Shown here one piece after another: positions 10,307-15,559 of a stretch of DNA of 41,901 nucleotides. The notes beneath the pieces were generated by a model that was not told where the DNA came from, ran no database searches, and was given only the letters and a program-made list of their open reading frames with translations. The first letter of the stretch is position 1; each line of letters opens with the position of its first letter. The position numbers and the translations under genes were made by a program. Source of the DNA: an uncultured Bacilli bacterium (GTDB lineage: Bacteria > Bacillota_I > Bacilli_A > RF39 > UBA660); NCBI GenBank assembly GCA_944358115.1, contig CALVQH010000005.1, positions 1 to 41,901 of the forward strand, in the 5' to 3' direction.

Positions 10307-10338
10307 AAAAAAAAGACCTAGTTTATTCAAACTAAATC
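10307..10338 (-). terminator. Intrinsic terminator of the Nudix/aaRS-like operon
   Basis: GATTTAGTTT and AAACTAGGTC form a 10-bp stem with G-T pairs around a GAAT loop, followed by eight T on the minus strand. It separates the five-gene operon from the ClpC-like gene. Confidence 0.8.
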
Positions 10339-10799
10339 TTATCTTTGTTAATTATATGGAAAAATTCTTTATCATTTAAGTGTTTGAAGGCAATTTCTGG
10401 TTTACAGTTATTTAACTCATGCTGCTTTTTCCAATAAAATTTGGCATTTTCTTTTTCTTCTTGATTAATGATACCATTTTGTTCATAAACTTGAGGATTC
10501 TTAAATTTTAATTCATGAATAATTAATATTTCGTGATAAGGCGTATGTGTATAACGCGAAATAAAGAAATTTTCAATCATGCCTACACTTCTAATATATT
10601 CTGTTTCTTCACCGGTTTCTTCTAATATTTCTCTTTTAAGAGCAGAAATACTGTCTTCTCCTAGTTTACATCTACCACCTACTAGGCCATAATAATCTAC
10701 TTGATCGTTTTTCTCTACTAATATTTTATTTTTATGGCGAATTAGGGCGGCAACACGGAAATTAAAAGTATAGTCTTTCTCTTTAAAATTAATATCCAT
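10332..10799 (-). CDS. Nudix hydrolase (last gene of a five-gene operon)
   Basis: Nudix pyrophosphohydrolase fold. The Nudix box is complete: GGRCKLGEDSIS then ALKREILEETGE, matching GX5EX7REUXEEXGU, near residues 40-65. The substrate cannot be read from sequence. The start ATG abuts the stop of the S51 peptidase gene with no gap. Its residues outside the box (NFRVAALIRHKNKILVEKND, and a Trp-Lys segment near the C-terminus) resemble Nudix proteins of the 150-residue class that act on nucleotide sugars or dNTPs. A second Nudix gene opens the same operon. Confidence 0.88.
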   Translation of the reverse strand: MDINFKEKDYTFNFRVAALIRHKNKILVEKNDQVDYYGLVGGRCKLGEDSISALKREILEETGEETEYIRSVGMIENFFISRYTHTPYHEILIIHELKFKNPQVYEQNGIINQEEKENAKFYWKKQHELNNCKPEIAFKHLNDKEFFHIINKDKI

Positions 10800-11489
10800 T
10801 TACTTTTCTCCTTTTTCATAACTAATTTTTTTTACATTACCAAGAAGTTGATAAGCTAGTGTTTTTCTATTTAGAATCATTGCTCCGTCATCATAAATGG
10901 CATAGATGTCTTTTTCTTTTTCCTCGGCAATCTTCTTTAATTTTTCTAAATACTGTTTATTATTAGATGTGTGAACATCAATGTAGAATGGATCTTTTAA
11001 TATGCCAAAGCCATCATAGAAAGCAAAATATTGGTAATAATTATTTTTGGCAGTAATAAAATAGCGTTCTAAATGTAGGACAGCTCCAGCACTTTCGCCA
11101 ATTATTAATCCTTTAAAATATTTGATATCATATAATAAATCAAATTTATGAACGACTAAATTAAAAAACATTTCGGGATTACCACCAGGAAGGATTAAGC
11201 AATCCGCTTCTTTTATTTTTGCTTTTAAATAATTTTTTTCTTCATCATAAGGGTTACTAATATAAATATTTTCCTTTTTTACTTTTAATTCCAATAAAGG
11301 ATTTACATATTTATTATATTTTGGTTCTCCTTCTTTAAAGTATTCTTCACTAAAACGCTTCTTATCTAGTTTTGTAGGAAAAGCCCAGGGTAAGATGACT
11401 ATTTTACTTTTTTCATTTAGTTTGGTTTGTAAAAAGTCATGACTTAATTCATAACCTTTGGCAATCTTACTTACTAATACACTATCCAT
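10800..11489 (-). CDS. Peptidase S51-like protein (dipeptidase E / cyanophycinase superfamily)
   Basis: A class I glutamine-amidotransferase-like fold with the nucleophile elbow GESAGAV (serine near residue 136), the oxyanion-side LILPGGNPE near residue 100, and a candidate catalytic histidine in YIDVHTSNN. Members cleave Asp-X dipeptides or cyanophycin. This copy lacks the usual Arg pair after the histidine. SD GAGGA precedes the ATG, one base after the previous stop. It sits between the aaRS-like gene and a Nudix gene, suggesting a role on a peptidyl or aminoacyl product rather than general peptide turnover. Confidence 0.75.
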   Translation of the reverse strand: MDSVLVSKIAKGYELSHDFLQTKLNEKSKIVILPWAFPTKLDKKRFSEEYFKEGEPKYNKYVNPLLELKVKKENIYISNPYDEEKNYLKAKIKEADCLILPGGNPEMFFNLVVHKFDLLYDIKYFKGLIIGESAGAVLHLERYFITAKNNYYQYFAFYDGFGILKDPFYIDVHTSNNKQYLEKLKKIAEEKEKDIYAIYDDGAMILNRKTLAYQLLGNVKKISYEKGEK

Positions 11490-11490
11490 T

Positions 11491-12552
11491 TTATTTTCCT
11501 CTTTTCAAAATTCTTAATTGTTCTTGCATATTAAACCGCTTCATCGCAGTTGCTAAATCTTTTTCTAAACTCTGATGAACTTTAATTTCTTCTTTTAAAT
11601 TATATAATAGCTCTCTCTTTTTTTCTAGCGGTAATTTAGCAATTCCTTTAAAGATGGAGTCTTCATATTCTTTTTCTTTTCTAGGCCATTTAATATTCAT
11701 TAGAATACCAATCTTTTTAATTAATAATTGTTCTTCACTAGAAATACTAGAAGGTAAGGCATTTAATCCCGTTAAAAAAGGTGTTCCTACTAAAATGGTT
11801 TTGCTTTCTTCTCTCAAACTTTTTTCAAGTAATCCAACTAGATATAATTGGTACATTTCATGATTTCCACAAATTACTACTTTTTCTGGTTCCTTAAATA
11901 ATAATAAATATAATCCCCATAAGAAATCAATGTCAATATGATAATTTTTATGTTGATAAGTAATGGAAATTCCTGTGTTTCTTGTTCTTGAAATAACTTG
12001 ATAACTATTATTTAACATATTTTTAAATGTCTTGGCATCTTTGTTTAAATAATCTGGCATAAAAGTGACTTGAGGATTTTTAATTTTGGCATAATTCATT
12101 ACTAAAGCATCCTTTTGGGCTAAAGTACAGATGGTTTTACAATGAGGGCAAAAGATTTTTCCGTCTTGCATAATAAAGTCCTTTTTATTAGGATTCATTG
12201 TTGCTAGATTCTTTTCTTCCATATCAATGATTCCGCAAGCACACGTATAACTTTTTATTTTTCGCTCTTCAATGAACCCTTTTGAAATTAGCTTGTTTAC
12301 TAAATCTAATAATTCTTCTTGATGAAGCTTATCTAACCAAATTTGGCCATCTAATTTGAAGGATGCGTATACTTTTAGATACTCTTCTAAATCTTTTTGG
12401 CGATTATGATAGGAATCTAGTGCGTTGATAGCAAGATAAAAGTTAGCGCCTAATACACTTGCTAGCTCATTCCCAATTATGGGTACAGTAAATCTTGCTA
12501 ATTCATAGTATTTTCTGGGTGATAATGGTAATGTGATTACTGCTCTATTCAT
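11491..12552 (-). CDS. Class I aminoacyl-tRNA synthetase-like protein without HIGH/KMSKS
   Basis: I do not recognise an exact family. The N-terminal segment (SPRKYYELARFTVPIIGNEL then GANFYLAINALDS, followed by EEYLKVYASFKLDG and LVNKLISKGFIEE) follows the spacing of Glu/Gln-type class I synthetases, with the HIGH position reading YELA. A zinc-finger-like insert has CACG and CPHC near residues 103-140. A central VISRTRNTGISI and VVICGNHEMYQLYLVGLL resemble the second half of the class I Rossmann fold; the KMSKS position reads ALPSSIS. Catalysis by the standard mechanism is doubtful. A strong SD (AAGGAGG) is present, and the start overlaps the nucleotidyltransferase gene by 8 bases. It could be a paralog acting in small-molecule synthesis. 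Confidence 0.45.
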   Translation of the reverse strand: MNRAVITLPLSPRKYYELARFTVPIIGNELASVLGANFYLAINALDSYHNRQKDLEEYLKVYASFKLDGQIWLDKLHQEELLDLVNKLISKGFIEERKIKSYTCACGIIDMEEKNLATMNPNKKDFIMQDGKIFCPHCKTICTLAQKDALVMNYAKIKNPQVTFMPDYLNKDAKTFKNMLNNSYQVISRTRNTGISITYQHKNYHIDIDFLWGLYLLLFKEPEKVVICGNHEMYQLYLVGLLEKSLREESKTILVGTPFLTGLNALPSSISSEEQLLIKKIGILMNIKWPRKEKEYEDSIFKGIAKLPLEKKRELLYNLKEEIKVHQSLEKDLATAMKRFNMQEQLRILKRGK

Positions 12553-13678
12553 TTAGTTTCCTCCTTAATCTATTTAAGATGCTCTTTAATTCTGTTTGAA
12601 TTTCTTCATATGCTTTAATTAAATCCTTATTTACATATTTTTTTATATCATTATCGTAATGAATACTAAATATTTCCCCTGCTTGTTCTAAGGTGTAGGC
12701 AAGATGCTCTACTTGATCTAAGTAGGCATATATTTGCTCAAATTCTTCTTTGGAAACAATTTTTAAAAATTTCTCATTTTTTAGAAAAGCGATTAGGTTA
12801 AAATATGGTATTTCCTCATGATTAAAAATTAAATAACATCTTACTAATTCTAAAGTATTATAAATATGATAGTACATATTGGTTTGATATCTTTTTTTCA
12901 CATTTTGTTCTGTATCATTTTCTATTCTTTTTTCTAGATTAATAATCTGTTTTTTTAACTTTTGTTTCGTTATTCGCTTCTTTTCATAATGAAGTAGGGA
13001 TGTATAAACTTGATTCCAAACTTCTTCTTTGTTAATAGCTAAAAAATTATGGGCCCATTCTCTATTTTGATTTTTGATTTCTTTTTTAAGATAATGGGTA
13101 AATGCTCTTAAGCTTTTGGAATTTTGGTAGTTTAAATAGAACCTTTTTTTCGTGGTTGGATAAAACAGATAGGAACGAGACCAATCTTGATATCTTAAAG
13201 TTACAGTTAATTCTTTCTTAGTTTGAACTTTCATACATTTCTTAAGATTTTTCTTACTTAATTTGGTAGTAATAACGGCATGAATGCGATTTCTTTTGAT
13301 GTGAGATAAAACGGAAGCTAGATAAAGATATATTTCTTCTTCAATTGCGAGATGTTTTTTTAAGTGATTGGGATAAATAAAATGAAGATCTAAATCACTA
13401 TCAAAGCGGTTAGTTCCTCTAGCAAAGCTTCCTGTTATTACAATAAGCACAGGATATTTATCAAAATCTGGAAATTCTTTTAGAAGGTCTTTTAGCAATT
13501 GGATTGTTTTTACTTTTTCTTCTTCAATTGTTTTTATTTTATGATTAAATACAAAATGGGACTCTTCTTCTTTTACGGTGATTGGTTTTATGGTATTTAA
13601 AACATGATCAATTTGGGCTTTTTCTTTTTCTTTTAATTCTAAAATGATATTATCATCATTAAATTTTATTTTCTTCAT
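12545..13678 (-). CDS. Pol-beta-fold nucleotidyltransferase domain protein
   Basis: The motif ITGSFARGTNRFDSDLDLHF near residue 82 is the GS...DxD signature of the polymerase-beta nucleotidyltransferase superfamily, so it probably transfers NMP to a protein, RNA or small molecule. The 377-residue protein also has a basic central part and a long helical C-terminal half rich in Tyr, Lys and Glu that could bind substrate, similar in layout to DUF294/GlnD-type proteins. The start ATG overlaps the preceding Nudix stop (ATGA) and has no SD, so translation is coupled. Second gene of the operon. Confidence 0.7.
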   Translation of the reverse strand: MKKIKFNDDNIILELKEKEKAQIDHVLNTIKPITVKEEESHFVFNHKIKTIEEEKVKTIQLLKDLLKEFPDFDKYPVLIVITGSFARGTNRFDSDLDLHFIYPNHLKKHLAIEEEIYLYLASVLSHIKRNRIHAVITTKLSKKNLKKCMKVQTKKELTVTLRYQDWSRSYLFYPTTKKRFYLNYQNSKSLRAFTHYLKKEIKNQNREWAHNFLAINKEEVWNQVYTSLLHYEKKRITKQKLKKQIINLEKRIENDTEQNVKKRYQTNMYYHIYNTLELVRCYLIFNHEEIPYFNLIAFLKNEKFLKIVSKEEFEQIYAYLDQVEHLAYTLEQAGEIFSIHYDNDIKKYVNKDLIKAYEEIQTELKSILNRLRRKLNE

Positions 13679-14085
13679 GATTTTAGTAGAAGTTCTTTTA
13701 AGGATGCTGGATAGATGTTTAATTCTTTTATTTTATCTTTCTTTATCCAAAAGAGTTCTTCTTTTCCCTCCTTTGTTTTATGCCCATTTAACTTTTTAGA
13801 ACAATTCATATGAAAGATAAAGAAGTATTCATGAATGGGAATCTTTTTTTCGTAAAAATTTTCTAAAAAAGTATAATAAGTTGGACTTACCTTTATACCT
13901 AATTCTTCTTTTATTTCTCTTTTGATACTTTCTTTGATTTTTTCACCAAATTTTACATGACCGCCTGGTAAGACATAATAGTCATTTTCCATCTTTTTTA
14001 AAAATAATATTTCTTCTTGATAAGTTAAGATAAGACCCACGCGAACATTGATTTTGTGGTTATGATGAATAAATGCTAAATCCAT
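13675..14085 (-). CDS. Nudix hydrolase (first gene of the five-gene operon)
   Basis: 136 residues with a canonical Nudix box, GGHVKFGEKIKE then SIKREIKEELGI, near residues 42-65, and the short beta-strand framework typical of MutT/ADP-ribose-type family members. The substrate is unknown. A strong SD (GGAGGGG) precedes ATG 14083-14085. It is 20-30% different in layout from the second Nudix gene at the operon end, so the two are probably not a recent duplication. A near-consensus promoter starts the operon just upstream. Confidence 0.88.
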   Translation of the reverse strand: MDLAFIHHNHKINVRVGLILTYQEEILFLKKMENDYYVLPGGHVKFGEKIKESIKREIKEELGIKVSPTYYTFLENFYEKKIPIHEYFFIFHMNCSKKLNGHKTKEGKEELFWIKKDKIKELNIYPASLKELLLKS

Positions 14086-14105: not shown

Positions 14106-14134
14106 ATTATATCACTAAGTCATTCACTTGTAAA
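14106..14134 (-). promoter_or_regulatory. Promoter of the Nudix/NTase/aaRS-like/S51/Nudix operon
   Basis: Minus strand: TTTACA at 14129-14134, 17-base spacer, perfect TATAAT at 14106-14111 with TGA before it (extended -10). It gives the operon expression independent of pyk. Confidence 0.85.
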
Positions 14135-14139
14135 TGAAA

Positions 14140-14168
14140 AGAAATTAGGGTTTTATTCACTAATTTCT
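14140..14168 (-). terminator. Terminator-like hairpin at the end of pyk
   Basis: AGAAATTAG and CTAATTTCT form a 9-bp perfect stem that includes the last pyk codons, followed by TTTTC on the minus strand. The T run is short. Confidence 0.6.
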
Positions 14169-15559
14169 TCTATTTTTAAAAAGTTGGTTAATCTGATATT
14201 ATTAATTGCAGGTAAGCCGCCAGTAATAATAATTTTATCCCCATTTTCTAGTTTGAAATACTCAATTGCTTTTTCTCTTACTAAATTTACAAGTTCATCT
14301 GTGTCATCCATTAGAGGGACAAGAGTTGTGTATACACCATAATTAAGAGCTAGGCTTCTCGCAACACTTGCCGTTGTACAAGTAGCTAAAATTGGACATT
14401 TTGGTCTAAAATTACTAATCATGCGCGTGCTATATCCACTGATGGCTTCCGCAACAATTGCTTTTACATCAACATAACTAGTTAAATCAACAGCTCCTTT
14501 GGCAATACACTCCGTACGACCAATTTTGCCTAAATAGCTAAAGTGATTTTCACTATGTTCTTCGGCATCTATGGCAATACTAGCCATATATTTAACTGTT
14601 TCAACGGGATAAGCACCTACCGTTGTTTCGCCACTTAGCATGACTGCATCTGTTCCATCCAAAACCGCGTTGGCAACATCAGTAACTTCGGCACGAGTAG
14701 GTCTTGCATTTTTCTTCATACTTTCTAACATTTCTGTTGCGACAATACAAAATTTGCCATGTTCTCTTGCTTTTCTAATGATACGTTTTTGATATACAGG
14801 TAAAAGAGAAATTGGTACTTCTTCCCCTAAATCACCACGTGCTACCATAACGCCATCCGAAACTTCTAAAATTTCATCTAAATGATCAATTCCCGTTTTA
14901 CTTTCAATTTTAGCAATAATTTTCATTTGGCTATTTTGCTCATTAATGATCTTTCTTGCTTCTAACACATCTTCTTTGGTTGATACGAATGATAAAGCTA
15001 AAAAGTCACCGTTATTCTTACAAGCATAGATAATATCTTCTTTATCTATTTCACTAATAAATGGAATATCAAGTTTTACGCCGGGAACAAATAAACTTTT
15101 TCTACTTTTTAAAATACCGCCATTTATAACTTTGCAAGTAACACCATCACTCTCTTTAGAAATTACTTCAATTTTCATTAAACCATTTTCAAGTTGAATA
15201 ACACTACCAATATTTAGACTATCTAAAGCTTCCGGATGATTAACACTAAAACGTTCATCATTACCTATGACACTTTCTTTTACAACACGAATTGTATTAC
15301 CTTCTATTAGATTAATTCCTTCTTCTACAGCTTCACCGCTTCTAAATTCTGGCCCTTTGGTATCATAAAGTAAACCAATATTTAAATTTTCTTCTTCATT
15401 CATCCATGAAACTAAATCACGAACCGTTTCTCTTTCCTCAATCGTAGCATGAGAAAAGTTTACTCTTGCTACATTCATACCTGCATGAGCAAGACTTCTA
15501 AATACCTCTTTGGTGTTTGTAGCGGGTCCAATACTACAAATGATTTTTGTTTTTTTCAT
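14153..15559 (-). CDS. pyk: Pyruvate kinase
   Basis: Last ATP-forming step of glycolysis, PEP + ADP to pyruvate. Seen: KIICSIGPATNT and GMNVARVNFSH at the N-terminus, LLYDTKGPEFRSG opening the B domain, IIAKIESKTGIDHLDEI with the catalytic lysine near residue 215, GVMVARGDLGEEVP, IVATEMLESM and VMLSGETTVGAYPVE. At 468 residues it has the C domain but not the extra PEP-utiliser-like domain of Bacillus pyruvate kinase. ATG has a GGAAGGGG SD. The upstream neighbour is the pseudo-signal-peptidase, whose terminator lies between them. Confidence 0.96.
   Translation of the reverse strand: MKKTKIICSIGPATNTKEVFRSLAHAGMNVARVNFSHATIEERETVRDLVSWMNEEENLNIGLLYDTKGPEFRSGEAVEEGINLIEGNTIRVVKESVIGNDERFSVNHPEALDSLNIGSVIQLENGLMKIEVISKESDGVTCKVINGGILKSRKSLFVPGVKLDIPFISEIDKEDIIYACKNNGDFLALSFVSTKEDVLEARKIINEQNSQMKIIAKIESKTGIDHLDEILEVSDGVMVARGDLGEEVPISLLPVYQKRIIRKAREHGKFCIVATEMLESMKKNARPTRAEVTDVANAVLDGTDAVMLSGETTVGAYPVETVKYMASIAIDAEEHSENHFSYLGKIGRTECIAKGAVDLTSYVDVKAIVAEAISGYSTRMISNFRPKCPILATCTTASVARSLALNYGVYTTLVPLMDDTDELVNLVREKAIEYFKLENGDKIIITGGLPAINNIRLTNFLKIEEISE

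Follow-up and report, generated by a model that had tools for sequence, protein, structure and literature searches.

The window, a 41,901-nt stretch of contig CALVQH010000005.1 from an uncultured gut Bacilli bacterium (GCA_944358115.1), carries five open reading frames (ORFs) on the minus strand within 10332–14085 (Table 1). Their presence and their overlapping or abutting arrangement, as described in an initial annotation made from the sequence, were confirmed: in gene order from Nudix-2, the junctions are a 4-nt overlap, an 8-nt overlap, a 1-nt gap, and direct abutment. The assignments of two Nudix proteins, a nucleotidyltransferase (NTase), and an S51 peptidase also held, with Pfam Nudix, NTP_transf_2, and Peptidase_S51 all scoring above cut-off. 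The signals proposed to bound the genes fared less evenly. The candidate promoter (14134–14106) is a good match and the joint top match in the region, although such matches occur in this A/T-rich sequence at chance level (44 observed versus 44 expected). The candidate terminator has the fold and the T tail in its favor, but it is G+C-poor, and its A/T-rich stem explains why the terminator scanner made no call there.

Table 1. Features of the window locus and of selected related loci
Feature	Location	Strand	Description
Candidate extended -10 promoter	14106-14134	-	TTTACA-17-TATAAT with TG, 11/12 consensus match
Nudix-2	13675-14085	-	136 aa, complete Nudix box; accessory, optional; Pfam Nudix above cut-off
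NTase (core gene 1)	12545-13678	-	377 aa, GlnE/DrrA-like nucleotidyltransferase, GS-x9-SDxD; Pfam NTP_transf_2 2.6e-08
aaRS-like (core gene 2)	11491-12552	-	353 aa, MetRS-derived, five invariant Cys (zinc-knuckle-like), HIGH and KMSKS absent
S51 (core gene 3)	10800-11489	-	229-aa serine hydrolase, Ser133 and His173 invariant; Pfam S51 1.1e-07
Nudix-1	10332-10799	-	155 aa; accessory, optional; Pfam Nudix above cut-off
Candidate terminator hairpin, then T8	10307-10338	-	Fold -12.5 kcal/mol, z -3.5
Short RSH	L029:5347-6834		Directly upstream of trio
Short RSH	L035:5415-6848		Directly upstream of trio
Short RSH	L123:6123-7565		Directly upstream of trio
Short RSH	L096:6962-8434		Directly upstream of S51
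Short RSH	L097:2299-3735		Directly upstream of S51
Related-looking cluster	L099:662-7462		RSH, AsnA/AsnRS-like protein of 343 aa, methyltransferase, unknown protein of 365 aa, kinase, S66 peptidase, S51

The label of a self-contained five-gene operon proved overstated, as the conserved core consists of the middle three genes (NTase, aaRS-like, and S51) and the Nudix genes lie outside it; the exact five-gene set was seen in the window genome only. The searches recovered relatives of the aaRS-like protein in three overlapping sets: the genomes G009, G026, G036, and G318; uncultured Bacilli/Tenericutes MAGs (26 loci); and same-family genomes (13 of 386). The order NTase, aaRS-like, S51 on one strand was present at about 20 loci, nearly all of those with enough sequence. 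A neighborhood search thus found the trio recurring together in relatives rather than scattered or singly, which supports a cluster that is not accidental. Strong matches among the 386 genomes numbered 13 for the aaRS-like protein, 14 for the NTase, and 18 for S51. The aaRS-like protein and the NTase occurred together in 12 genomes (0.5 expected; p = 6e-20) and the aaRS-like protein and S51 in 11 (p = 4e-15), the joint counts within the trio being 12, 11, and 10 against 0.5–0.65 expected. At one locus (L039), which has no S51, a single 742-aa ORF fuses the NTase (11–392) and the aaRS-like protein (400–739). Other variants place S51 ahead of the aaRS-like gene (L033) or the NTase last (L048/L105), separate the aaRS-like gene from S51 by a radical SAM RlmN-like gene (L024, L025), or carry an inserted GNAT gene (L103). 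In these mostly draft MAGs, where gene absences at contig ends are uncertain, members also occurred apart: S51 without the other two (G022, G514, G592, G594, G658, and G744, with a broken S51 in G571), the aaRS-like protein without S51 (G432, G539), and the NTase without the aaRS-like protein (G591, G636). By our own reading of the sequences, the five window genes are flanked by pyruvate kinase upstream and a ClpC-like ATPase downstream. The pyruvate kinase genes that adjoin the trio in two genomes (window 14153–15559; L037:8136–9545) lie on opposite sides of it, one upstream and one downstream.

The aaRS-like family was found in the window genome only in a phylum-wide sample (177 genomes) and, besides weak matches, in the window's bacterial family only in a class-wide sample (395 genomes). 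Two of these weak class-wide matches were ordinary MetRS and GlnRS. In the genome collections, which were sampled and not exhausted, the family seems to be restricted to a single bacterial family, and a search of viral, phage, and plasmid collections and IMG/VR yielded no relatives. The literature, incompletely covered, yielded no paper on the combination. The trio is a real system and apparently one that has so far gone undescribed.

Pairwise protein distances within the trio correlate strongly with one another (r = 0.93, 0.86, and 0.82; 0/2000 permutations). This co-variation is not mere host inheritance, because distances correlate little with those of the housekeeping Rel of the same genomes (r = 0.06 for the aaRS-like protein and 0.32 for S51) and highly similar trio proteins occur in divergent hosts. 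The Rel proteins of G036 and G723 are 54% identical, yet their aaRS-like proteins share 93% and their S51 proteins 92% identity; likewise, Rel is 56% identical between G533 and G658, yet S51 is 93% identical. From these comparisons, the module is transferred horizontally as a unit, also among distantly related bacteria, at times beside recombinases, with large serine recombinases after the cluster at L024 and L032. Mob_Pre genes occur at L015 and L021, and the surroundings of L018 and L019 hold a PrimPol-helicase and an IS1595-type transposase, respectively. Values of dN/dS in close pairs (0.10–0.21 for the aaRS-like protein, 0.16–0.32 for the NTase, and 0.09–0.14 for S51) indicate that all three are maintained as proteins by purifying selection, S51 most strictly, and the NTase and the aaRS-like protein diverge faster than S51. 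Decaying copies were also evident. The NTase is truncated or split at three loci (L016:6773–7690, L017:5074–6299, and L104:5104–6273) at which the aaRS-like gene, and S51 where present, is still open, which suggests that the NTase tends to go first; at L030, the aaRS-like gene is broken. About 2 kb beyond the trio of L016 (G036), a MetRS-like gene is split into ORFs of 131 and 419 aa (L016:12029–13674), perhaps a frameshifted MetRS copy.

The aaRS-like protein matched no Pfam, NCBIfam, or PADLOC family; Pfam gave chance matches only across 22 members, and prion protein matches in a PDB sequence-profile search were likewise attributed to chance. An AlphaFold2 model built on the 22-sequence alignment (pLDDT, 90.2) retrieved MetRS as the top Foldseek matches (E = 4e-11), along with the PyrN MetRS-like domain, which was solved with a glutamyl-adenylate analogue. 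VIA-align superposed it on Thermus MetRS with a Z of 22.4 over 320 residues, LeuRS and ValRS following closely. The predicted structure has the HUP/Rossmann catalytic fold of class I aaRSs, and we predict a compact MetRS-type (class Ia) fold including a zinc-knuckle-like insertion. The initial annotation had suggested comparison with GluRS/GluQ-RS and MshC, kinships set aside here since the structure search ranks MetRS first, then Leu/ValRS. In hhalign, the N-terminal half of the profile aligned with that of MetRS from the same organisms (E = 3.7e-06), with ELAR falling at the HIGH site. The HIGH motif is absent in all 22 members (ELAR in the window protein, NIGM or similar in relatives), and no KMSKS-like motif occurs anywhere in any of the 22 sequences; the putative KMSKS site was placed by secondary-structure order, hhalign of the second half having given no placement. 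With both motifs missing throughout, the aminoacyl-type activation earlier attributed to this protein is unlikely. Invariant positions (five cysteines, S188, R191, T193, G194, D207, D209, W212, and N230) point to some conserved site, though not the classical ATP-activation site. As to a full anticodon-binding domain, the protein (353 aa) is shorter than the ordinary 509-aa MetRS that the window genome encodes elsewhere, and its short helical C-terminus aligns to residues ~415–432 of MetRS in the structural comparison. Cyclodipeptide synthases are TyrRS/TrpRS-related and are not known to carry the zinc insertion. They resemble the aaRS-like protein, hereafter pseudo-MetRS, in having a class I aaRS-like fold from which HIGH and KMSKS are missing (PMC2922099), and differ from it in their partners.

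The NTase model (pLDDT, 91.8) gave weak Foldseek matches (best E, 0.007). Its two-part architecture, compared with VIA, aligned to both halves of GlnE (1v4a; Z, 17.6 and 16.3) and to DrrA (6yx5; Z, 13.3), the next rows reaching at most 9.8. An NTase domain plus a helical domain and the GS...DxD signature, the GlnE/DrrA-type combination, were both found. G83, S84, S94, D95, and D97 are invariant, so that the metal aspartates are retained, and the candidate position for a third acidic residue holds His in most members and Asp in a subgroup. On the model, the protein is likely an adenylyl- or nucleotidyl-transferase, and the structural relatives, and they only, suggest a protein as its acceptor. 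Unlike GlnE and DrrA, with which it shares 9–12% identity, it has no glutamine synthetase or Rab link, and its partner is the pseudo-MetRS. Against MntA of the type VII toxin-antitoxin system, NCBIfam gave 27.3 bits (cut-off, 60), and the neighboring gene is not a HEPN toxin. A possible HEPN RNase motif in the C-terminus (RCYLIFNH), noticed on visual inspection of the window protein alone, was rejected as it shows no conservation. At L102:2023–4969, a gene distantly related to that of the NTase directly borders one for a radical SAM protein resembling viperin, and an IucA/IucC-like protein is encoded next.

In S51 (32.2 bits in Pfam; cut-off, 23.9), Ser133 and His173 are invariant across alignments, the segment RYFITAKNNYYKYFAFYDG is nearly so, and a near-invariant Asp pair (200–201) lies where the third triad residue may sit; the profile gave no meaningful match to a solved structure in the PDB. 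Yagmurov et al. 2022 (PMC9239234) proved that MccG, an S51 peptidase, cleaves microcin C's toxic aminoacyl-nucleotide, and the S66 peptidase MccF and the GNAT acetyltransferase MccE2/MccE are further immunity enzymes against this compound (PMC9239234). With S51 peptidases proven to hydrolyze aminoacyl-nucleotides (PMC9239234), the aminoacyl-nucleotide theme of the initial annotation remains the best lead, even though its activation step is unlikely. The module resembles microcin C immunity in its S51 Ser/His hydrolase and in the S66 and GNAT genes at relatives' loci, and differs from it in that no mcc biosynthesis genes were recognized at module loci. Its S51 subfamily is a putatively distinct one. 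The L099 cluster has the look of another aminoacyl-nucleotide cluster of this kind, one whose aaRS-like protein belongs to class II, and GNAT genes adjoin the NTase or aaRS-like gene at L103 and L104. The GNAT and S66 families are both large, and coincidence may account for these genes.

Other neighbors are optional. The Nudix box (GX5EX7REUXEEXGU) of Nudix-1 deviates at the last hydrophobic position only; a Nudix gene also lies beside the core in the sister genome G026 (L005), and most loci have none. A second RelA/SpoT protein of ~480–495 aa (short RSH; HD, synthetase, and TGS domains), encoded besides the 703–738-aa Rel, lies next to the trio or S51 at several loci and within the L099 cluster (Table 1). 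Between G533 and G658, the short RSHs are 91% identical, close to the value for S51 and far above that for Rel, and by these identities the short RSH has moved together with S51 in at least this one case. It is an associate and not a core member, since it is also found away from the cluster in several genomes. In the window genome itself, a divergent RSH-like protein of 488 aa is encoded at a site apart from the trio (L121:6693–8159, G000:C3; 36–40% identity to other short RSHs).

Tentatively, and at odds well short of even, we explain the trio as a horizontally mobile module that handles an aminoacyl-nucleotide-like molecule, a mimic of the tRNA-charging intermediate. The pseudo-MetRS, which would keep the aminoacyl-adenylate binding fold while having lost the adenylate-forming residues, would capture this molecule or the charged tRNA end that it mimics. 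The NTase, in complex with the pseudo-MetRS, would add a nucleotide, and the S51 hydrolase would cut the bond between amino acid and nucleotide, as MccG does on processed microcin C. Nudix, HAD, short RSH, GNAT, and S66 proteins could be interchangeable helpers that cut or modify the nucleotide or aminoacyl parts. We infer the complex as a general rule, as well as the substrate and the protective role. This explanation is the best at present because of the MccG precedent and the S66 (L099) and GNAT (L103, L104) genes at relatives' loci, and mobility of the kind usual for resistance or conflict genes also counts for it. It further draws on the co-occurrence statistics, the shared gene order and strand, the L039 fusion, the predicted MetRS fold with its PyrN match, the GlnE/DrrA fold of the NTase, and the retained Ser and His of S51. 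No exporter or precursor peptide was recognized at the loci, making a producer role unlikely. Against it, the strongest structural relatives of the modeled NTase act on proteins and not on small molecules, and S51 is absent at L039, G432, and G539.

The main rival is a protein- or tRNA-directed conflict system resembling phage defense or toxin-antitoxin modules, possible in our view though rather unlikely. The NTase would adenylylate a protein or the tRNA 3' end, with the pseudo-MetRS as targeting or inhibiting partner and S51 as effector or reset enzyme. The protein adenylylases GlnE and DrrA as nearest NTase folds and the weak MntA antitoxin match are consistent with this, as is a trio that is patchy, mobile, often decayed in its NTase (L016, L017, L104), and quick to diverge, more so in the NTase and pseudo-MetRS than in S51, amid recombinases, Mob_Pre, PrimPol-helicase, and Bro-N/RhuM genes. 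However, no known defense model fits the core proteins well, housekeeping genes often flank the loci, the trio is missing from phage and plasmid collections and IMG/VR, and S51, the best conserved member, also occurs alone.

The original proposal of a module for intracellular synthesis of an aminoacyl- or peptidyl-nucleotide, a metabolite or signal that S51 and Nudix enzymes would turn over, we regard as unlikely. Nucleotide-phosphate enzymes (Nudix, HAD, short RSH) do recur beside the trio, and MetRS-like domains do have roles other than translation, both in hydrazine synthetases (PMC11705231) and in predicted peptide ligases (PMC2922099). The Spb40/PyrN hydrazine synthetases (the Iyer 2010 family) offer the parallel of a MetRS-derived protein in a horizontally mobile, non-translation operon (PMC2922099, PMC11705231), whereas the partners here are an NTase and S51, and no cupin or N-hydroxylase/lysine N6-monooxygenase was recognized beside the trio in profile scans covering part of the flanking ORFs. 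The accessory enzymes vary between loci, and the MetRS paralogues of PMC2922099 retain the adenylation residues that the pseudo-MetRS has lost. A sensor of amino acids or tRNA charging tied to the stringent response, with the pseudo-MetRS detecting the charging state, the NTase targeting a metabolic enzyme for adenylylation, and (p)ppGpp tuned by the short RSH, is quite improbable: metabolic adenylylation has its paradigm in GlnE, and the short RSH lies beside the trio or S51, or within the L099 cluster, and traveled with S51 in G533/G658, but an RSH neighbor is missing from the majority of trio loci, the window among them, several genomes carry it elsewhere, and regulators of core metabolism are seldom so mobile. 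Chance neighbors or decaying housekeeping genes, which the five-gene set unique to the window genome and the broken copies elsewhere might bring to mind, are scarcely credible given the co-occurrence, co-divergence, fusion, and low dN/dS of all three genes.

At odds somewhat short of even, we place the broader reading of a mobile system that is new in category. In it, a GlnE-like NTase and a catalytically erased MetRS would work as a single enzyme whose target is an aminoacyl-nucleotide, a charged tRNA, or a translation protein, a dedicated S51 would reverse or complete the reaction, and a short (p)ppGpp synthetase/hydrolase would be an optional traveler. The pseudo-MetRS represents a MetRS-derived family without activation motifs, unrecognized by the libraries used, with a near-constant NTase partner and clear signs of horizontal transfer. 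Under either reading, the question is directly testable with three small proteins. If tRNA or protein adenylylation were true, the trio would be a new conflict system; if aminoacyl-nucleotide handling were true, gut bacteria would face undescribed natural tRNA-synthetase poisons, to which they would have evolved a multi-enzyme answer.
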